Source of the DNA: Antedon bifida
Taxonomy: Eukaryota; Echinodermata; Crinoidea; Comatulida; Antedonidae
Direction: 5' to 3'
Assembly (NCBI GenBank): GCA_963402885.1
Contig: OY727102.1
Location: 17,670,001-17,734,000 of the forward strand
DNA length: 64,000 bases
In this document: positions 761 to 46,349 of the stretch, one piece after another
How positions within the stretch are numbered: position 1 is the stretch's first letter
How the letters are laid out: each line of letters starts with the position of its first letter
Made by a program: the position numbers and the translations under genes
Notes under the pieces: generated by a model
What the model saw: only the letters and a program-made list of their open reading frames with translations
What the model was told of the DNA's origin: nothing
Databases searched by the model: none

Positions 761-3679
761 TCAACAATGTGAGTTTTTGCATCTTTTCCATGTCTTGCCG
801 TTGTTTGCGACACACTGGCAGCCGACTGATACGTTTTCTTTGCGCATTTCAAACCATGAAAGGCTTTCGTCAATCCTGTCAGCATAAAATAACATACGCA
901 CCTCATGATAGATTTCTTGACACCTTCCTGGACATCCATGTATCACACATTGGTCGCATTCACAAACCACGTTGTCAACTAACATCGGAATACGTTGTTC
1001 GTTTTTTAAACTGACTATCGTTGACTTGCAGTTCCGTTTTTCTTGTTCGAATCCTTCTTTGGTTTGTTTGAAGATTTGAACGTCAGCTGAAAATACACAA
1101 AACCGATATATATATATATATATTATAGTTTTTTGATCATTATATTTTTATTGTGTGTTTTTTCTCTCTGCGTCAGTGAATAACGTTATCAAAACTAAGA
1201 TGGCCTATTCAAGGTTTGATTTTATTCATCTTATCGTTCCTGTTAGGTAAATCAACGACGTAGCAGAGCGAGTTGGCCAATCACAAGCGGCAGTTCGAAT
1301 AATCCATCGCCTGTGATTGGTCAAACTACTTGCGTTGTGCTTACGTCCTTGCTTTTAGTTCTAATATAGGAATTAAACTTCATATGTTAAACGTTAGAAA
1401 TACTTACAACATTTTCTATATTTAGACGTGGTATTTGTAGTACGTTGTGTGTCACTATTGTTCGGTGGTTGGTAACTAATAACATAATCATTTAGGTGTC
1501 TCGTTGAATTGGCTAAGATAACAGTACTCATTGTAAATATAATCATTAAAATAGTGGCAGTCTGAAATTTAAAGAAAAATGTAATTTTTAATGTTTTCTA
1601 GGCCTACATATTTTGCTTTATTAAGTTTTATTAACAGCACCAAACTACCCAACTACGTCACTGCCACGTTCACAATTTGGTAGGCATAATTACTATAATA
1701 TACAAACATGTCTTCTTTCGTATTTGTGAACGTTTTTAAATGTATTAAAAAGATAACGCACACGTGGTCCTTTGAATCTTTTGTACTAATTACATTGATT
1801 GGACATGCACTTGTGTTCGCTGTCAGAAAGTACAAACTAGGGAATTCCCCTTTTACTTTACGCGACAATTGACTGACGTCACAATAACTTTACTACAGTG
1901 ACTTTCTGAAGTCCAATTAACGTATATTGTCAATATTTTGCAACCATTTTTGTGACATTATTATAAATTACAATGGCTGCACTAAAATGTATTCTGTAGA
2001 GAGATAATGAAGATGACTTTACAGATAAATAGGCCTACAGGGAAATAAATATGATCATCAGTAATATACATCAAATACCCAATTCAAGCAAGGAATTTTT
2101 TATTTTTAAAATATAAATTATGTTGGTCTACCATATTATTTGTAGGAAACTGTATTTTGTGGATGCAAACTGTTAATTATTTTAAGAAAAAAAAATAATA
2201 AAATCAATTGAAACAGCACCTTCTATATTATTTAATTAAAATACGATCTGGATGAGTTTGGTGGTAAGCATGTGTACATTGCAGCAACTAGGCAGAGGCC
2301 TAAGGGTATATGAGTTATAACAATTGTAGTAGCTAATTACACTAAACAAAGCTCACTCAGATCCCTTATTTTCCTCCCTAAACCTTTTAAAGTTGAAAGA
2401 CCTTAACTATTATCAACAGTGTACTTTTCTCTACTCATCGATTAACTCCCTAAACCCACCTCAATTTACAAATTTATTCCAACCAAACGCATCTTTTCAC
2501 AATTATAGAACTCGAACTGTACAGGATATGCATATCCCTCTTCATAAAAAAACATCATTTCAATATAACATAAGATTTAGTGGACCTAAACTATGGAATA
2601 AACTACCTTCAAATATTAAAGTTGCTGTATCTAAGAAAAGCTTTTCATTTAAACTTAAAAGATATATCACATCCAAGTATTAATTTTTATTATATTACAT
2701 CTAATGATAATAATTTTAATGATGATTAACAAGAATACGAACAACTCTTAATTTATACCAAAATTATTTTTTTAGTTATTTTACTTATTTAGTTTAACCC
2801 ATGTTATGTAAATTTATATATTGTTATTTCTTTATTTTATTTATTTTTTTTTCTTTTTCCGTGTTGTTTAAATCTAATCTTTGTTTAGGCATGTCTGTCA
2901 CAAGCTTTTTGCTTTTTTGAACATGCCTTCTTCAATCATATTACCTTTCTTTACACCATTTTGTATACTGTTTTATTTTAAAGAAAATAAATGTTACTTT
3001 GAATTGAATTGAAGGCCTGCAAACCACAGTGATCACTAGCGTGAAAATGCATTTCAATTGAACTATTAACACTAGTATAGTAGGCGTAAGCCTATACTAG
3101 AAAATCTTAATTAGGCCTATATATATCAAGAGAAGATTGAAATTTTACTCTTCCCCTTGGCTTATATTGAAGATTCAAGAAATGTTATTGGTCCACTTTA
3201 AAATGGAAATTCGTTTTGCTTGGCATAATTAAGACAAAACGAAAATACATCAAATTGCAAAAGGCAGTGTTAAAATACTATTAAAATGTTAAAATACTGT
3301 TTAAAAAAATTAAAAATTCAGATTTCAAAAACGCCATAGGCTCTGTAAAATGCTGTTATTAAACGATTAAAATTTAAAATAAAATATTACAACAATATTA
3401 CAATATTCTTCACGCCTAAAATGTTTTCTTATAGTATGTTATTCACATTAGTATATTTGAAATGAAATAACAGAAATTAACTACAAATGAAAGTTTGTTA
3501 TTTTTTAGACCTATATTATTTTGTGGTGCGTGGATGGAGATAAACTGTCCTATTATAAACGAATAGGCTGGCCATGCTCACTACAGATACACACCAATGC
3601 TTACAAGCCATGTAAAAGTAGGCCTACAGTCAGACGATACTCGCAGTAAATCACTGATAATATTATATCTTACCTTCAT
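761..3679 (-). CDS. IL-17-like cytokine, paralogue 1
   Basis: Secreted cystine-knot cytokine of the interleukin-17 family, expected to signal through IL-17 receptors. Exons in transcript order: 3674-3679 (ATG AAG only), 1408-1561, 761-1086; all introns are GT-AG, phases agree, 161 aa. Residues 1-19 form a hydrophobic signal peptide. The family hallmark is clear: an RIP motif at 85-87 preceded by N-E-Q, a C-x-C-x2-C cluster at 95/97/100, and a terminal V-G-C-x-C-V at 142-146. Extra cysteines at 73, 105, 109, 156 and 161 are lineage-specific. The two-codon first exon is the least certain part; it was chosen because it gives an in-phase start and a good donor (GTAAGA). Family identity is inferred from motifs; orthology to a vertebrate IL-17 letter is not assigned. 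A second paralogue lies just upstream on the same strand. Confidence 0.8.
1252..1349. repeat. Degenerate MITE-B-type palindrome in intron 2 of IL-17-like gene 1
   Basis: An inverted-repeat segment with the arms ccaatcacaagcg and cgcctgtgattgg around a short centre, plus flanking GCGTTGTG-type sequence. It matches the inner part of the larger MITE-B form at 49405-49527. Old and diverged. Confidence 0.5.
2340..3013 (+). mobile_element. 3' end of a non-LTR retrotransposon (LINE), truncated
   Basis: An open segment at about 2366-2683 encodes the C-terminal end of a LINE reverse-transcriptase polyprotein: L-N-L-L-K-L near the start and F-S-G-P-K-L-W-N-K-L-P-S near the end, typical of the thumb region of CR1/Jockey-like elements. 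It is followed by an AT-rich 3' UTR, AATAAA and an ATTGA-repeat tail (2996-3013). 5'-truncated as usual for LINEs. It lies in intron 1 of IL-17-like gene 1, opposite strand. Confidence 0.75.
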
Positions 3680-34741: not shown

Positions 34742-37700
34742 TCATTTCATTGGTTTCTTTTTCGGTGTACAACATCCTTTAATGAGCCAGAAATCAATCG
34801 CTTCAACAAATGCCACGAGACTGGCACCAAAGAATAGCCCCAGAGCACCACCAAGATCACCTGCAAAAATAACATTAAATAATAGTTTAAAATACATAAT
34901 AATACGCGGTTAATCGGTTGCAAACTTCATGTTCAACAGACTTACTTACTTGTATTTACTGTGCGTTAACAATTGTGTTTTTTAACTAAACACATATACA
35001 AATTTACCCGATTCTGAATCTGTCATTAGGTAGACTATAACTGACTATTGACAGTCATCTAGATACGGGTCTAAGTGTATTAAGTAATATACGTTTAATA
35101 CATGTTATATCTGTCGCTATGTTATTGTGCGTTAACCATTTAAAAAAAACTGAATACGTATAAAAATTAACCATTTAATCTGTCATTAGGCAGACTATAA
35201 CTAACTATTGACAGTCATCTAGATACGGGTCTATGTGTATCAAGTATACGTTTAAAACATGTTATCTGTCACTATGTTATTGTGCGTTAACCCATTGTGT
35301 TTTTTTACACAATACAAATTTACCCGATTGTGAATCTGTCATTAGGTATATTCTAACTGAATATTGAAAGTCATCTAGATACGAGTCTAAGTGTATTAAG
35401 TACTTGTAATACATGTTATCTTTGTCACTAAGTTCGTATGTATAATGTAAATTTGTATTTTGTACTCGTATTACTGTCAATAGTTGGTTAGAATCTACCA
35501 CGTGACAGCCGCAAATCGAGTGAAATTCAATTCACCGCGGAGTTCACATAATTAACTGAATCTGCACTAAAAACACTTTATTATTTTATAGCTATAGCTC
35601 AGCATTCTTCATTTGTATTTTTATTGATGCTGGTCTATAAATTAGAAAACGATATCAATAGACTACTTACATACGATAGAGAAAAACTCGTACCCCGGTT
35701 GCTCTACTACCTCTTCGACGTTCAATGTTTCATAGTAGATGTCCACTCGAGCTAAATTATCACTATGAAATTAAATTAGTGTAGCTGTTATTCTGTTATG
35801 ACATAATAATAGATAGAAGAGCTTGGTCTACCCAAGGAAATCTAATAGGACACTGAGTTCGCCTTGCCAAGATAGGAACTCGTAAAAGTCTTTGTCTTAT
35901 GTCTAGCTGCGTCAAATACCAATGGTACTACTGTAGCCTACTCCTGTACATATTCTCCGCGGCACGCAGTGTATGATAAGGGGCGTGGAACTGATCGTGT
36001 CGCAGCCACAGATACACATTTTTTTATTTCAATTTATATTAATGAACCTTTAAAGTATATAACTTACGCTATGTATTCTTCGGTTAAGAACGATATATCA
36101 CTGGTGGTGTAAATGCTTATGCCAAACGCGAAACAGGAATCCCAAACTAGCGGATAAGCAATCACGAATAGTTTACCCAATAATACGTCAGTGAAGAGTT
36201 CTGCGTCTTCTTCGGTCAAGTTCGCCGATGGAGTTTCCTTGGTGGCGAGTAGCATTGTTTCGTGTATAGCGTCAATCTGGTTACGAAGTCCCTTATCAGC
36301 TTCTTCTAGAACCTCTTGATAGAAATCGGAACCGACTCCAGTATGTGTCTTGTTAAACTCGTCGTCTTCACTTAAAGCCGCCGTAACATCGTAATATATA
36401 TTATCTCCGAGTATGTGGACCAAATAAAATATCATATCATAGCAAAATATTGTGAATTGCCATTCAAATTGTGTAACATATTCTTGGTCCACTTCAAACA
36501 CACCCTGCATGCTAAGTTCTTCGGCCGTTTCATCTACTAGGTCACCTACAGATTCAAGCAACTGTTCTGAAATGGCGTTTCGTGTTGCCTCCATGCTTCG
36601 TCTAAAAATATTAGCAAGAAGATTAAAAACTAATCGTACTAAGAACGTATTTCAGTTTGTGTTTGAAAAAAAAGTTTTGGATAATTTTGATGTTTTTTTA
36701 CGTTGAATTCAAGCTCAATCTCCCTTACAATCGTAGTCATTCTGCGTTAGTGCCATTGGCATGATTTCCGGGAAATCCTATCATGAATTAACCATTTGTG
36801 ATTTTACCAAACATACAAACACAAATTGGCGAAACTGAAAAACTACATATGAGTATAAATAATTGTAAATATGTTGCGATACACCACGTAAATAGGAACT
36901 GTTGAGGTTCTCCTCGACGTTTCGATCAATATGCTTTGAGAATTCTCACTCTTGAGGACGATCAAAGTATTTTGATCGAAACTTCGAAAGCCAACAGTTC
37001 TTTTCAGAACTATACGTAGTGTACCGCAAACTTTATATTAACATTTGATTTCGATATGCAAACCTTTAAACAATATAAAACACATGTTTACGTCAATCAG
37101 CTTCAATCATAAATCTATATTATAACTATATATTACTATATGGCATTAGTAATATTAGTATATTGGTATTCCATGTGTTTTTAGCAATACATGTGTATAC
37201 TATACGTTTTATTTTAGAAGATGCATATGTCTTAGTATTAGTAAAAGAAGTAGTATACGGGTAGATTTTAAACAAAGATAGAGTAATACAGTGTTTCATT
37301 GTTTCAAATCTATCTCTATCTCTGTGTTAGCGGTACATTTGGCTTGTAAATAAATAAAGATACTTACTTGACTTTGAATCCTAGGCCAAGTGCGAAGTAT
37401 TGGTGCTGGTTAGTCACAATAAACGTCTGCGGCACACCGCGAGAAGGAAAACGACTATACGACGGCGTTTTCAGAAAGTTTTCAACGTCACATGCCTCTT
37501 TACAGTCACAGTACTCCTCCCGATGATCAGAAAATTCGTCTGTAAATATAGATAATACGTAAATGTATAAGCTTAAGCTAAGTTAAAGGCCCGTTTACAC
37601 TGGAACAATAACGAACGACGATAGATACCATAGAAAAAATATGCATTTTTTTGCAGAAAACAAAAGAAATGCAATATAATAACGTCATGATCAGTAAGAA

Positions 37701-40700
37701 CAATAACATCGTTACAATTATACTGATTTAATTGTTATTATTGCTCATGACGTCATGACAATATGGATCTACGGTTTCAAATGCATTTGTTTTCTGTAGA
37801 AAAAGTTAGTCGTCGTTGATCGTGCGATAGTATAAACGGACATTTAACCGACTTCACATCGTATGAAATTCGAAAACGTTTTAAATACCTTAGTATTTTT
37901 AAATACTTAAAAGTCATTGTTAAAAAGTTCAAATGAAATTATTTTTAAAAAATGAATAGACCAGTAATTTAACTTGGAATGATCACCATGATCATTATCA
38001 TCTGATGATCATATTATCATTTGATGATCATAATATCATTGTTATCATCATAATCACTATCATTATGTTCACTACTGATCATCACAATAACTTACTAGGA
38101 CCTAATATCACGGAGGTCCTTATGTAATAAATTATCAATCCGATTCCTCCATGTCACGAGTATGCGCACTCGTTTCAACAGTTTTGAAATCGGAATAAAT
38201 ATTGACATAAATAATAGTAAACACCAATTACCACTTTATGACGGCTTTTAAGCTGTTTATATTGCATTTTCAGTTGATAGCTTTCTGAAATATGTCAATC
38301 AACTAATTTACTAAATAAACTTGAAAATGATTAAATAGCAAAAATCGATGACCAATGTGAAAGAAATAAATTGAATCCGAGTACTGTTTCAGTGGTGATT
38401 GTTGAATGACTATATTACACTTCAAATAGAGAAGTCAGAATATACGTTTAATAATTGCACTTTAAATGGCCTGGAATAACATCTTTCTCTCGGCCTATAA
38501 TATCGACCACCATGGCTTTTGTAGTTCAACCAAGATGGTTGTTGTTCAACCAAGATGGTTGTTGTTCAACCACCATGGCTTTTGTAGTTCAACCAAGATG
38601 GTTGTTGTTCAACCACCATGGCTTTTGTAGTTCAACCAAGATGGTTGTTGTTCAACCACCATGGCTTTTGTAGTTCAACCAAGATGGTTGTTGTTCAACC
38701 AAGATGGTTTTTGTTCAACCAAGATGGTTGTTGTTCAACCACCATGGCTTTTGTAGTTCAACCAAGATGGTTGTTGTTCAATCACCATGGCTTTTGTAGT
38801 TCAACCAAGATGGTGTTTGTTCAACCAAGATGGTTGTTGTTCAATCACCATGGCTTTTGTAGTTCAACCAAGATGGTTTTTGTTCAACCAAGATGGTTGT
38901 TGTTCAATCACCATGGCTTCTGTAGTTCAACCACCATGAGTTGTGAATTAATAATTATTGACCAGTACCATCATTTTCGATAAATTTGTTTTATGATTAC
39001 ATCTTTTTCAGTTTTTTTGGTAATTTTGAGTTTTATTCTGTTTGTGGGCGAACTGTTCTTATGACAACAGTACGGTGGCATGATGTTATCAAAGTAATTG
39101 TCAAATCAATTGTATAAAACTCAATATTGATAATTATCACATTCGTTATGACAACAATGCAGGAGGATATTAATAAAGTCAAATTGAATGTAATTTAAAA
39201 ATGCCAAAACAGTCACTCAAACTTTCAATTAAACTTGAACAGGATTGTAGAAATTACAATTCACTGTGACGTATTGATTGCGCGTCATCGAGATGAATTG
39301 TCTGAAAGATTATCACAAAAAGGTATTTTCAGACATAAGATTCTCAACGTACGTAACTAAAGTTTTTCGTAATTCTTGCGCACGCGCAGATCGATTTGTT
39401 TACAAAGTGGGCGGAGCTTGTGCGTTGAATGTTGGGAAAGAGCGTTAACGTTTACGTGCTCCTGCGAAAACTCCCTCCCAGATGTTCTACCAACGTCTTT
39501 GGGTACTTTTTTTTATCAACAGTTAACAAGTAAACATATCATTTTCAAAGTCAATACTCAAAGATAATACAGGCACCTGTAACTTTAGTCTGGGTTCCAT
39601 GAGACGGCGTTTTTTCTTAATATTAGTAAAAAGATAAATGTTTTGGCACATATGGCGTTTCATACGTATACTACTTGATTTTGGATACTCCACAAAAATC
39701 GAAATAAAAACAAATAAATTTTAAAAAAGACAATGAATACATACTTGGGGCAAGTCTACTGTAACTTTTAAAAGTCTTAGAATAATATAAACAAGGGGAA
39801 ACATGGCGATGATTTTTCCATAGAAATGATTACAAGAACATTCAGGGCCTTCTTACCGTATTTTGGGAGGTAGCATCCAGTTAAGTTAGCGGGCGAACAG
39901 AACACTTGATCTGCATCTAAAATAAACAATTTCAGCTGGATAACTTGTACAATATAAGTTACAATAGTTACCAGATCAAACACAGAACCCGTACTATCTA
40001 TATATTTATGTTTGATATAACAAACGGTGTGCAAAATAATCTACATAGAAAACTTTAGAAATTTAAAGTGAATTAAATCTCACTTACTGCCAGGTACGTA
40101 GTAAGTCCGGCATCCGCACTTCTCCATAAAATAATCAGTTTCACATTCAAGATAACATCGAGATTGCGTGTACGAATCGTTTGTGTACTTCAGTTGCCTA
40201 TGTCCGCTTTCAATACACGTTCCATGTGGTTTTGGTAACGAGGTTATCTGGGAACATTACATTGAGAAAACTTCAAATATACGCCTTTGCCAAGTTTAAT
40301 CAGGGAAGTGTAAGGACGGGGAAATAAACAACATGAGTTCATGTGATTCAAGCAAGAACGTTCGATTCCAAAAGTACTCCGGCCGAAAATTCGTTACACA
40401 TAGTGTGTAACGAACGTGTATAGTCTAAAGACAGGTCCTCCCCAATTATTACAGCGAATAATGTACTGAACAGAATTTGAAAATCAAAACAAATTGACAA
40501 AGTTTAATATAATGGCATATGACCATCACAAATGCACTGCGTGCATATTAAAAAATTGTACTTTGAATGTTCACTGTTTCTATTTTTAGCAGACTCGTAA
40601 ACTTACCGTTTGTTTTCGTATGCCTATTGACGCGCGCATTCCAGTGGCGATATCCACGCCTGACGCCTCTAAATCCGGGATATCGTTCTGACCGTCAATT

Positions 40701-43700
40701 GCTATTCTGAAACCGACGTTTTCTCTCGGAGCCGATATGTACTGTATGTGCTCAACATTGAGTATCATGCTAAGTCCGCGGCGTTGTCCTGCAATACAAC
40801 ATTCATTGTTTAGTTTAACTGGAGACGCAACGCAAGGACGGAAGCGTAACGTAAGTGGTTTGACCAATCACATGCGACGGATTAATCGAACTGTCGCTTG
40901 TCATTGGTCAACTCGCATGAGTTGCGTCTACGTGAGAATAAGTCATAAAAGCAATGTAGTGATACTGTAGTATTAATCATACGTTTTTAATTAACAATAT
41001 ATTAAAGTTTTTACTACGTTTCATCTAAGTATAATGTAATGTTTCATCCGTACAATAAAATATCTACAGCTCTGTCTACACTATCAAACTTTGTGACAAC
41101 AAATGTGATGTGTTCATTTATGGACATGGTGATGTCATATCACTACCGTATTTAAGCATATCACTACCATATTTTGGCAAATCAACATTTTTTTTTCAAA
41201 CTAGTTTGATAGTGTAGACAGAGCTCTAAAAGCTTCTAAACTGGATCCAAAAAGTTAGAAACGTTTCGACCAAAATGATCCTTTTCTGTCATAAGGTTAA
41301 TTAAATTAATTGGAAAAATAGAAGAAGAAAAAATAGAATACTATATACAAAGTTATTAAACAGTTTCATACCGTACCTGCATTTTTTATATTTGTCTTGC
41401 CAGTTGGCGGATTGAAGACATAACACGCTCCGTAATTTGTATAGGTTAGCGTAAAATTACTCGGGCCGCACTCAACACCATTGAACATACATCTGCAGTA
41501 GGTAAAACCAGTAATACTTCAATTTATATACAATAATATCGGATAATATCCCCTAAAGGTGTTGAAGACTTGTTTCAAATGTCTTAAACAAACTGTTTTT
41601 CTTTTTATAAGAATAATATTCTTTAAAAAAAAAAGAGTTTTACATACGGATATGAAGATTTGTAGATTCTAAAATAGTTAAGCAAGATTATTATCACTCA
41701 CATTACTACCTTATAGGCCTACCCGTACACACATCGACAAAAAGTAGCAATGTAACAAACACATCGTCAACATGTAGTTTTACGTGTGAATCTGAGTCTA
41801 TGCTGTAGGCGGTGATTTCTTTTAATAATATTAAACCAAATCGCCGTCTACAGCCTAGACTCAGATTCACACGTAAAACTACATGTTTATTTTCTATTAA
41901 GACGTCACCTGATTACCATTAATATCAGAATTGAGCGAGTCAAATTTACAATAACAATATCGGCAATGCTTTTATATGACCTTACAGGTATCTTCTTTTT
42001 ATCACTTACCTTCTGCTCCAGTTATTTCCTCCTTTGATATGCTTTAAGCCATGGAATGACGTCTCGTCACTGAAGACATCAAATCTTCCTTTCACCTCCT
42101 CCTCCTCATCGTCCTTTATGCGTCTTTTAATCGGCATATTTACCGTGCTTTGTGGAGCCAAGTTCTTTCCTCTGTGTTCATGTGTAGCAATATCCATATC
42201 GTCTCTCCACTGTCTGTTGGTCCAATGTCTCTTTGAATGTTCACTGTTTCTATTTTTAGCAGACTCGTAAACTTACCGTTTGTTTTCGTATGCCTATTGA
42301 CGCGCGCATTCCAGTGGCGATATCCACGCCTGACGCCTCTAAATCCGGGATATCGTTCTGACCGTCAATTGCTATTCTGAAACCGACGTTTTCTCTCGGA
42401 GCCGATATGTACTGTATGTGCTCAACATTGAGTATCATGCTAAGTCCGCGGCGTTGTCCTGCAATACAACATTCATTGTTTAGTTTAACTGGAGACGCAA
42501 CGCAAGGACGGAAGCGTAACGTAAGTGGTTTGACCAATCACATGCGACGGATTAATCGAACTGTCGCTTGTCATTGGTCAACTCGCATGAGTTGCGTCTA
42601 CGTGAGAATAAGTCATAAAAGCAATGTAGTGATACTGTAGTATTAATCATACGTTTTTAATTAACAATATATTAAAGTTTTTACTACGTTTCATCTAAGT
42701 ATAATGTAATGTTTCATCCGTACAATAAAATATCTACAGCTCTGTCTACACTATCAAACTTTGTGACAACAAATGTGATGTGTTCATTTATGGACATGGT
42801 GATGTCATATCACTACCGTATTTAAGCATATCACTACCATATTTTGGCAAATCAACATTTTTTTTTCAAACTAGTTTGATAGTGTAGACAGAGCTCTAAA
42901 AGCTTCTAAACTGGATCCAAAAAGTTAGAAACGTTTCGACCAAAATGATCCTTTTCTGTCATAAGGTTAATTAAATTAATTGGAAAAATAGAAGAAGAAA
43001 AAATAGAATACTATATACAAAGTTATTAAACAGTTTCATACCGTACCTGCATTTTTTATATTTGTCTTGCCAGTTGGCGGATTGAAGACATAACACGCTC
43101 CGTAATTTGTATAGGTTAGCGTAAAATTACTCGGGCCGCACTCAACACCATTGAACATACATCTGCAGTAGGTAAAACCAGTAATACTTCAATTTATATA
43201 CAATAATATCGGATAATATCCCCTAAAGGTGTTGAAGACTTGTTTCAAATGTCTTAAACAAACTGTTTTTCTTTTTATAAGAATAATATTCTTTAAAAAA
43301 AAAAGAGTTTTACATACGGATATGAAGATTTGTAGATTCTAAAATAGTTAAGCAAGATTATTATCACTCACATTACTACCTTATAGGCCTACCCGTACAC
43401 ACATCGACAAAAAGTAGCAATGTAACAAACACATCGTCAACATGTAGTTTTACGTGTGAATCTGAGTCTATGCTGTAGGCGGTGATTTCTTTTAATAATA
43501 TTAAACCAAATCGCCGTCTACAGCCTAGACTCAGATTCACACGTAAAACTACATGTTTATTTTCTATTAAGACGTCACCTGATTACCATTAATAAAAAAG
43601 GAGAAAATTTCAAAACAATTGTGTAAAGGATACACTTACACTTGCAGCATGTCTTCCATCCGATGAGCATTGTACTTTATAAATTGCTGTAAATTTTTAT

Positions 43701-46349
43701 CGCCGGGGTATTTATTTGAGTCTAATACCAAATTACCGTCATCTGCCGTAGTTATACCAACGTCAGGTGTCAGACTTTGAAGATATCGAAGACCGTATAT
43801 GAAAAAGTATACGAAGCCACCCATTAATGGAGTTACCTCATCAAATCTGAAATAACGTAATTCGGTTTACATTATCAACATAGATTTACATAAACTAAAG
43901 AACCCGTTACTGATACTGATACTGGTATTATTTTATTGTCCATAGTAATATAAAATGGAAATACATTTGAAACTGGTATGAAATATATGAAAAAAAGATA
44001 TACTATATACAAATTCAGAAGATTACAACAAAATACACAAAAATACATTAAAAGCTAGGTTATATATAATACATACAGATTAAAAGTTACGTATACAGTA
44101 TACTAGTCAAAGTCAAGTCAAAAGTAACATTTATTTCTCTATAAATTACAATAATTTTAAACTAAGAGTGGTGAAATCCAAAAAAAAGCAACGCTTCTGA
44201 GAGGCAGCCCAGTCAGATAAGTCACATTTGGTTTTTTTTCACATAATTTACAAAATGCAAGCTTAAACACAGATTCGTACAAAGCCCCATACTTGTCTCT
44301 AGATAGGAACCTAATGACAGAGATATCGTCTATTAAAAGTATTTAATACAGTTAGAAGGTATCTGGCAGACTGACAGCAGTCTTCCGCAGAGAGTCTAGT
44401 GACAGCCACAAAATCGGGTGCTGTAACAGTATTCAAACCTTTCTTATAATTATATTTAGTACCGATCTTAAAGCATTTTTTTTACCACTGTTTGAATTTA
44501 TTAGGGCGAATCGAATAAGTTGGCTAATGCGCAGGCGTAATTATGCTTAATCAATCAGAACTCGGGGATGTTTGATTCGCACGAATATATAAGTGGGAAA
44601 ACAGGCTTAATCGATCTATTTCTTTGATGTAGGATTCTACACATTATTCCCCACTACCTTTTGTACACCAGTAGCAAAAAAATCAAATTTATTCTGTCTG
44701 TTGCCAAGGAAAATCTTCACCATACTTAACCGATCATCAAAAGTGGGTTAATTATGTTGCTTAGGTTCTACTAAGGTAATGTAATTCTAATGTAATTAAT
44801 TTTGTAAAAGATCTGAATATCCAGTGTAATCTCCCTGAAATATCTAGGTAATACAAAAACAATAGGCCTATGACACTAAAACCTCGTTTGTAGCACTATC
44901 ATACTAATTATTTAAAAACTCAGATAACGACATACATTTTTGCAATTAAGATTAGCAATAAGTAGTAAGAACACTGATTGCTTACCGTACTGTAGGCCTA
45001 GCCTAACTATCACGAATTCGTGGAAGAACACACCTTTTTTGGTGAATGAGTTTTTAAATATTTTGTATTTGTTTTTTATAATTTGGTCTAGAGACAATGC
45101 AGTTTATTTTCTGTTATAACCATGTACTTTGCGAGAATCGGCTGAAACTTCTATCCGAATCGACGCTCTGGTATGAAAGAAGGATAATTTGAATTGAAAA
45201 CCATCATTGACGTCGGCATCAACTATTACATTATCAATAAACCCGTACTATTCTTAAGCTCTGTCTACTATAAAACTTTATTTGATAAAAAGTATGATGT
45301 CCTATATAGACATGATGATGTCATATCACTATCATATTTGGGTATATCACTGCCATATTTGAGCACATCACACTCTTTGTTGTCAAACTAGTTTAATAGT
45401 GTAAACAGGATCGATCAGAATACTTACTTGAACATATTGATATTGCACACGGTAACTTTAGGAAACGGTACTGATGATTTGGTAACATAATCCAAGTTGG
45501 TGTTTTTCGGATAATCAAAGTACTTGCTTACTGACCGTTGTATTTGATATGTGAGACCAATCAAAGCCAATATGAGAATTATCAACCAAGATATTCTGAA
45601 AAAAGGGGGAATTGAAAGTATACTTTGACACATGCGAGCCCGATAATACAAACACAAAAAAGAGATATTGGTTATAATGGATTTTAATATGAATGGCAAG
45701 TCTTCGTTGCAACACATGCTCGTAAAAGGAGAACATAAACAAATAGAACATTGGTATGCTCTCTGAAAAGGGCCAACAAAGGCAACGAAGGAGATGTGAT
45801 ATAGCAGAAACTTAGGCCTACTGATTCACTGACGTATAAAGATGTATTGTCCGCTTTCAAAATTAATGAAGATAAGAAAAAAGCAAACCATTTTGTATAG
45901 TTTTCAAATCAGAATTGAGCGAGTCAAATTTACAATAACAATATCGGCAATGCTTTTATATGACCTTACAGGTATCTTCTTTTTATCACTTACCTTCTGC
46001 TCCAGTTATTTCCTCCTTTGATATGCTTTAAGCCATGGAATGACGTCTCGTCACTGAAGACATCAAATCTTCCTTTCACCTCCTCCTCCTCATCGTCCTT
46101 TATGCGTCTTTTAATCGGCATATTTACCGTGCTTTGTGGAGCCAAGTTCTTTCCTCTGTGTTCATGTGTAGCAATATCCATATCGTCTCTCCACTGTCTG
46201 TTGGTCCAATGTCTCTCACCACCGTACGGGGCTGCATCGATATAACCGGGAATATCGCAATTACTATAAAATATCTCGTTGTTTCTTCTGACAAACAACG
46301 GATCATCTACAAAATGCTTTGAATCTTTAATTCCACCTTGATGATACAT
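34742..46349 (-). CDS. DEG/ENaC/ASIC-family sodium channel subunit
   Basis: Amiloride-sensitive-type trimeric cation channel subunit of the plasma membrane. Exons in transcript order: 45994-46349, 45428-45595, 43640-43846, 43047-43162, 42277-42458, 40088-40247, 39857-39916, 37368-37539, 36068-36601, 35671-35762, 34742-34860; GT-AG throughout, phases agree, 721 aa. Landmarks: cytosolic gating motif H-G (105-106); TM1 ~120-138; F-P-K-V-T-V-C-N-I-N right after; finger/thumb cysteines (C-x-F-x-G-x-x-C in exon 4, L-P-K-P-H-G-T-C and C-G-C in exon 6, C-D-C-x3-C in exon 8); TM2 ~684-706 with L-G-G and the G-A-S selectivity filter (694-696). Exon 9 adds ~178 residues absent from ordinary family members; without it the protein would be ~543 aa. 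Exons 4 and 5 exist in a second copy (41377-41492, 40607-40788), so either pair could be used. ATG 46349 is the first in-frame Met; the frame stays open ~37 codons upstream without ATG, so an additional 5' exon is possible. Ligand unknown. Confidence 0.88.
34955..35440. repeat. ~155-166-bp tandem repeat in DEG/ENaC intron 10
   Basis: Three units, each starting with GTGCGTTAAC (34961, 35127, 35282) and containing CTGTCATTAGG, GACAGTCATCTAGATACGG or its variant, and ACATGTTATCTGTC. No coding potential. Confidence 0.75.
36068..36601 (-). CDS. DEG/ENaC exon 9: symmetric 534-nt insert exon
   Basis: This exon encodes residues ~475-652 between the thumb cysteines and the pre-TM2 strand (N-L-A-R-V-D-I-Y-Y-E-T-L). 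ASIC/ENaC proteins normally need only ~20-25 residues there. Both flanking introns are phase 2 and the exon is 178 codons long, so skipping it keeps the frame and gives a standard-length channel. The insert is acidic, has two N-glycosylation sequons (N-K-T at 557, N-L-T at 601) and two cysteines (527, 630), all compatible with an extracellular position. No known domain recognised. Confidence 0.85.
36895..37080. repeat. Dispersed repeat with hammerhead-like core, copy 1
   Basis: Contains TTGAGGA (36952-36958), a stem GATCAAA/TTTGATC with GTAT loop (36960-36977) and GAAAC, followed by AACAGTTCTTTTCAGAACT and GTGTACCGCAAACTTTATAT. An inverted partner of the first part lies just left (CTCGACGTTTCGATCAA at 36914-36930). 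Same element at 52860-52985. Layout resembles ends of Penelope-like elements or metazoan retrozymes; in DEG/ENaC intron 8. Confidence 0.55.
38505..38937. repeat. Minisatellite with alternating ~21-bp subunits
   Basis: Two subunits alternate: TTCAACCAAGATGGTTGTTG and TTCAACCACCATGGCTTTTG plus TAG. They form a ~42-bp higher-order unit with some variation. Both are rich in CCAAGATGG/CCACCATGG, a near-palindrome. Open frames through it (V-V-Q-P-R-W-L-L repeats) are repeat-driven. In DEG/ENaC intron 7. Confidence 0.9.
40822..40932. mobile_element. MITE-B-type fragment beside the exon 5 copy
   Basis: Arms TTTGACCAATCACATGCGAC and GTCGCTTGTCATTGGTCAAC around TTAATCGAACT. It begins ~34 bp upstream of the exon 5 acceptor on the coding strand. 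An identical copy is at 42492-42602. Confidence 0.65.
41068..41225. mobile_element. MITE-A copy in DEG/ENaC intron (duplicated segment 1)
   Basis: Ends AGCTCTGTCTACACTATCAA and TTTGATAGTGTAGACAGAGC. The identical copy at 42738-42895 arose by the segmental duplication and not by transposition. Confidence 0.85.
41770..41886. repeat. 117-bp near-perfect hairpin palindrome
   Basis: Left arm ACATGTAGTTTTACGTGTGA..., right arm its reverse complement, about 50 bp each with roughly four mismatches, around an AT-rich loop (TTTTAATAATATTAAA). The second copy is at 43440-43556. No transposon match recognised. Confidence 0.85.
41932..42233 (-). pseudogene. Partial copy of DEG/ENaC exon 1 wedged between duplicated segments
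   Basis: Matches 45907-46216, which contains the 3' half of exon 1 (from W-R-D-D-M-D-I-A to H-G-L-K-H-I-K-G) with its donor and 80 bp of intron 1. The 5' part of the exon and any acceptor are missing; upstream on the coding strand it abuts the exon 5 donor region of duplicated segment 2. Not expected to be spliced in as an internal exon. Confidence 0.85.
42231..43591. repeat. 1.36-kb duplicated segment, copy 2 (exons 4 and 5 used in the model)
   Basis: Partner of 40561-41931. Holds exon 4 (43047-43162), exon 5 (42277-42458), a MITE-A copy (42738-42895), a MITE-B fragment (42492-42602) and the hairpin (43440-43556). Near identity over introns means a very recent duplication or an assembly artefact. 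Confidence 0.9.
44102..44480 (-). mobile_element. LINE 3' fragment in DEG/ENaC intron 2
   Basis: On the minus strand it ends AATAAATGTTACTTTTGACT followed by a TTGACTTGACTTTGACT tail, the same AATAAATGTTACTTT end as the LINE at 2340-3013. Upstream sequence has short coding-like pieces (K-Y-G-A-L-Y-E-S-V-F-K-L) interrupted by stops. Confidence 0.55.
45257..45410. mobile_element. MITE-A copy 18 bp from the TM1 exon donor
   Basis: Left AAGCTCTGTCTAC, right AGTTTAATAGTGTAAACAGG (diverged). It lies between DEG/ENaC exons 2 and 3, ending just before the exon 2 donor at 45428. Confidence 0.75.
45839..45893 (+). mobile_element. MITE-C end fragment
   Basis: AAAGATGTATTGTCCGCTTT matches the MITE-C terminal repeat; the rest is short and diverged. 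In DEG/ENaC intron 1, next to the break-point of the exon 1 duplication (45907). Confidence 0.45.

Follow-up and report, generated by a model that had tools for sequence, protein, structure and literature searches.

A fast-evolving knuckle exon shared by eight genes of an ASIC-like DEG/ENaC subfamily in Antedon bifida

The window analysed here is a stretch of 64,000 nt of the Antedon bifida genome (G000:C15:17670001-17734000), which carries on its minus strand g1, a gene for a DEG/ENaC channel. Exon 9 of g1 follows the thumb exon, precedes the last extracellular strand (beta-12) and adds 178 codons to the knuckle of the channel. Exon 9 is very probably a normal, most likely always-included exon, which encodes an accessory, mainly helical knuckle domain of an ASIC-like DEG/ENaC subfamily and was gained once by the common ancestor of eight or more genes. 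Site, frame and phases of the exon are common to eight genes of the 315.6-Mb assembly (27 contigs) that was searched. In the same assembly COX1, on contig C27, has six in-frame TGA codons, and the adjacent ND1, on the opposite strand, reads best with AAA as Asn; this agrees with the mitochondrial code of echinoderms, and the gene order resembles that of sea stars. Positions given below for g1 are window positions.

Exon 9 and its channel gene

The model of g1, built from the sequence, has 11 exons and 10 introns, all GT-AG (Table 1), and translates to 721 amino acids with exon 9 and 543 without it. Its sole Pfam match is ASC (PF00858), which the 721-residue form matches in two stretches at 302.1 bits, far over the cut-off of 23.6. 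A GAS-type motif in the second transmembrane segment (TM2) and an HG motif before the first (TM1), which we take to be marks of DEG/ENaC channels, are both found in the translation (FFGASLVAF in exon 11, SFHGL in exon 1). The closest solved relatives of the protein are ASIC1 and ASIC2 (4nyk_A, E 9.8e-58; 6l6p_A, E 1e-57), followed by ASIC5, ENaC and FaNaC. ASIC1 and ASIC2 resemble the g1 protein in domain order and in the GAS motif, but in the top alignment ASIC1 has 11 residues between the thumb stretch and the pre-TM2 stretch, where the g1 protein has 195. Although these are the best PDB matches, the clade of insert-bearing genes is not joined to ASIC1 in an 18-row tree.

The splice sites of exon 9 follow the consensus (acceptor ATATTTTTAG/ACGAAG, donor CATAGC/GTAAGT), and its 534 nt hold no stop. 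The chance of 178 open codons is ~8e-7 if the GC content is taken from the flanking introns, or 1.6e-5 if it is taken from exon 9 itself; with exons at the same site in seven further genes, a chance open frame is untenable. Sequence evidence of this kind confirms exon 9 as a real exon. The encoded insert is net acidic (36 Asp and Glu against 7 Lys and Arg) and has two N-x-S/T sequons, at insert residues 83 and 127. It matches no Pfam family and no PDB sequence, and a fold model predicts it to be helical (predicted local distance difference test, pLDDT, 69.5).

Insert exons in seven further genes

A genome protein search with the g1 insert reaches one other locus, g2 (C15:1.94 Mb; 26% identity), where frames match all 11 exons of g1 and an insert exon of 489 nt, phase 2 on both sides, lies at the same place. 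Six more genes were reached by other routes: g3 (C15:1.21 Mb; insert 531 nt) by thumb and beta-12 profiles, g4 (C15:1.20 Mb; 561 nt, 74% identical to the g3 insert) via the insert of g3, and g5 (C15:1.86 Mb; 480 nt), g6 and g7 (C13:8.75 and 8.78 Mb; 477 and 480 nt) and g8 (C13:8.765 Mb; 471 nt) via searches with exons 5 and 8. The seven genes, on two contigs, thus have stop-free inserts of 471-561 nt at the same site and with the same phases, and insert length across all eight genes is ~157-187 codons. Thumb donor, insert acceptor and insert donor are of phase 2 in every gene (8/8); the beta-12 acceptor is so in seven of the eight, the stretch read for g7 stopping short of beta-12.

The exon-5 search gives 13 matches with E < 0.01. 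Nine of these, at E <= 2.6e-8, are the eight insert genes, g1 being counted twice because its exon 5 is duplicated. The remaining four begin at E 2.1e-4 and comprise L017, L021 and L022, in which no insert is seen, and an unread locus at C15:20.42 Mb. The insert is therefore not absent from close paralogues: all seven other genes joined to g1 by exon 5 at E <= 2.6e-8 have one. Its presence in at least seven sister genes of one genome points to an old subfamily feature, neither new nor optional.

Origin of the phase symmetry

Twenty profile rows include a start of beta-12. Removing five duplicates of g1 or g2, the row of g3 and a chance match, L008 (E 4.9), leaves 13 other DEG/ENaC genes (L016, L017, L018, L020-L023, L025, L027, L028, L030, L033 and L034). 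The intron before beta-12 is of phase 2 in 13/13, judged by consensus only, with an AG exactly one base ahead of the aligned codon. When an exon arises inside an intron of phase 2, both its ends take that phase, so that symmetry is no evidence for regulated skipping; on this consensus reading the symmetry of exon 9 comes from the ancestral phase-2 intron. With such an intron already in place, a channel family can accept a domain and keep its frame intact. The intron between thumb and beta-12 measures 94 nt in L030, 224 nt in L028, 287 nt in L033, 432 nt in L025 and less than ~160 nt in L027, and in these five genes it is too short to conceal an exon of 471 nt.

The end motif and probable inclusion of exon 9

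All eight inserts end in Y or F followed by I or M just ahead of the split codon (TEEYI, ARDYM, TAEFI, ATEFI, TTEYM and, three times, AVDYM). In a phmmer alignment TEEYIADN of g1 is matched to SEQYIGEN of ASIC1, immediately ahead of beta-12, and in the five non-insert genes with a thumb exon read, comparable residues close that exon. The thumb exons of the insert genes share an LG end motif (8/8), which is absent from all five non-insert thumb exons read. The usual end of the knuckle helix thus probably now lies in exon 9, the motif being a short one (helix names follow published ASIC/ENaC usage). Skipping would then leave an unusual join, and because the end motif of the inserts matches what non-insert genes carry at the end of the thumb exon, we infer that exon 9 is probably constitutively included.

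Alternative explanations

A preliminary description of this DNA had offered two readings of exon 9, a regulated cassette or a newly captured exon. As a cassette, exon 9 would be included or skipped, toggling the product between 721 residues and a normal-length channel of 543. Its length is divisible by three, its phases are equal, and the skipped form matches ASC end to end, in one stretch and at 319.2 bits, slightly above the full form. However, the ancestral phase-2 intron already gives the symmetry, and skipping would lose the end motif of all eight inserts and leave an LG-type end like that of no non-insert thumb exon read. Around exon 9 the sole significant non-coding match between g1 and g2 is a dispersed repeat, which counts weakly against regulated splicing, as the pair may be too diverged. 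We regard a cassette as quite unlikely. Recent capture, by g1 alone and from elsewhere in the genome, would suit an insert with no Pfam or PDB match whose first genome search gave just one other locus, but it is scarcely credible given seven other genes with same-site exons and saturated synonymous sites between g1 and g2. Within this genome the seven paralogues refute it, the added length being common to all eight genes of the exon-5 group. Of the preliminary description, the DEG/ENaC channel, the in-frame symmetric knuckle exon with its coordinates, the length of the skipped form and the acidic, twice-glycosylatable insert of no recognisable family all stand; new capture falls, and regulated skipping is unsupported.

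It is also very unlikely that unrelated helical inserts entered the site on separate occasions within the subfamily. Some groups show no significant similarity to one another in the insert (four of six direct hhalign comparisons; for g1 and g3, 182 of 500 shuffles are equally good). Against repeated entry, the inserts agree in site, phases and size class, their end motif and the preceding LG motif are common to 8/8 genes, the four insert genes included in the 18-row tree form one clade, and two linking comparisons between groups are significant. Common origin of the eight inserts is thus supported at the sequence level. A further alternative, which we think unlikely, makes the insert a relaxed spacer, tolerated filler without a job of its own. 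Identity between g1 and g2 is 27% in the insert against 52-90% in nine other exon pairs (exon 1 left out), and by such comparisons the insert evolves fast. In g3 and g4 (L015:3118-3648 and L039:1499-2059) the first 110 insert codons have nonsynonymous (dN) and synonymous (dS) divergence of 0.198 and 0.208, and the last 66 are nearly identical (dS 0.043 vs 0.208), perhaps through relaxed or diversifying change plus gene conversion. A spacer of this kind is at odds with an open frame retained in eight genes, with predicted helices instead of disorder, and with an insert dN/dS of 0.33-0.44 among g6, g7 and g8. That ratio fits a translated, constrained exon (purifying selection in the trio) and supports protein-level constraint on the insert; the thumb piece of the same genes has 0.09-0.29, and their beta-12 protein is identical in g6 and g8.

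The non-significant insert comparisons, the higher Pfam score of the skipped form and the equal rates in g3 and g4 weigh against a single, always-included domain, as do several further points. The fold models have low confidence (pLDDT 69.5 and 54.1) and point to no particular known fold. An aromatic residue is found at the end of three of the five non-insert thumb exons, TADYI in L030, ESYV in L028 and KDYA in L027, and at none in L025 and L033. Inclusion of exon 9 is a prediction from sequence. In the eight other non-insert genes nothing insert-like is seen and the thumb exons are unplaced, so that absence there means 'not seen' only; in L018 an unexplained frame of 110 codons lies 657 nt upstream, and the other frames of at least 110 codons contain beta-12 itself or lie more than 2.6 kb upstream. 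The DEG/ENaC genes read are part of the genome's set, a cluster at C10:27.05-27.49 Mb being mostly left out.

Possible role of the insert domain

An accessory domain gained once would have been acquired by the ancestor of the eight or more genes at an intron already of phase 2, and gene duplications would have followed, with quick divergence of the insert domain. From the models, the insert may form a helical bundle, probably glycosylated, on the knuckle. This bundle would occupy the upper outer corner of the trimer, close to the adjacent subunit's finger. From there it could bias gating, by binding a ligand or partner from outside or by shielding or tethering the channel. By analogy with related channels, our tentative choice of role is that the insert recognises an external ligand or partner and thereby alters gating; assembly control, tethering and shielding rank lower.

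In the available text of PMC11026163, the corner between finger and knuckle is the site of stimulus action in several DEG/ENaC subfamilies, and in FaNaC1 the knuckle helix alpha-6 and the finger helices of the adjacent subunit make the FMRFamide pocket. That pocket occupies the corner where the g1 insert would sit; a large knuckle insert in FaNaC is unmentioned in the same text. The GRIP domain of ENaC is described, in the part of PMC6197857 available, as a subfamily-specific extracellular insert at the channel periphery that affects gating. The g1 insert is likewise subfamily-specific, extracellular and, in its predicted position, peripheral, but it is placed after the thumb and before beta-12 and is predicted to be helical. 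An accessory domain at the stimulus corner, retained in eight genes while outpacing the channel in sequence, is a natural candidate for a ligand-sensing or tethering part. No description of such a knuckle insert domain was found in searches of the open-licence literature, and public echinoderm protein sets may hold these proteins unremarked. Possibly the insert represents a helical extracellular domain not described before, which arose a single time at an ASIC-like knuckle and diversified over at least eight genes; it would recognise a ligand or partner, gate the channel as a module and be the knuckle counterpart of ENaC GRIP.

Exon model and further observations

Table 1. Exons of g1 in window positions
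Feature	Position	Strand	Remarks
Exon 1	45994..46349	-	N terminus with HG motif (SFHG); start codon picked by eye
Exon 2	45428..45595	-	TM1 and beginning of extracellular domain
Exon 3	43640..43846	-	Finger region
Exon 4	43047..43162	-	Second identical copy at ~41377-41492
Exon 5	42277..42458	-	Second identical copy at ~40607-40788
Exon 6	40088..40247	-	Cysteine-rich beta-ball/thumb region
Exon 7	39857..39916	-	Thumb
Exon 8	37368..37539	-	Thumb end and knuckle start; final residues ..FPSRGVPQTFIVTNQHQYFALGLGFKV; donor phase 2
Exon 9 (insert)	36068..36601	-	534 nt; phase 2 at both ends; probably a helical domain on the extracellular side; last residues (TEEYI) resemble the ASIC helix ahead of beta-12
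Exon 10	35671..35762	-	beta-12 strand toward TM2 (DNLARVDIYYETLN..)
Exon 11	34742..34860	-	TM2 with GAS motif, C terminus, stop

Exons 4 and 5 lie in the stretch 42231-43594, of which 40561-41924 is an exact second copy. The two are separated by a further copy, 100% identical, of stretch 45908-46216 from exon 1; this copy is at 41924-42232, and the joins overlap by 1-2 bases. These duplicated stretches reflect either templated duplication in the very recent past or an error of the assembly. Intron 7 contains an imperfect repeat array of the type GGTTGAACAACAACCATCTT (38503-38944). The dispersed repeat in intron 9 (35859-36017) is ~175 bp long, with 40 genome copies scored of 1225 candidates, and a copy with matching orientation lies in intron 9 of g2 as well.

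In g4, intron 8 (L039, ~2270-3552) holds a long minisatellite with units of ~18 bp (GATATCAGTAATCAATAT) that adjoins the insert exon. The thumb exon of g8 (L043:2608-2906, C13:8.765 Mb) is split by ~300 bp relative to g6, by a new intron, an insertion or breakage of the gene. The cluster on C10 (G000:C10:27051588-27488022) is dense in DEG/ENaC exon matches and is apparently a large local expansion.
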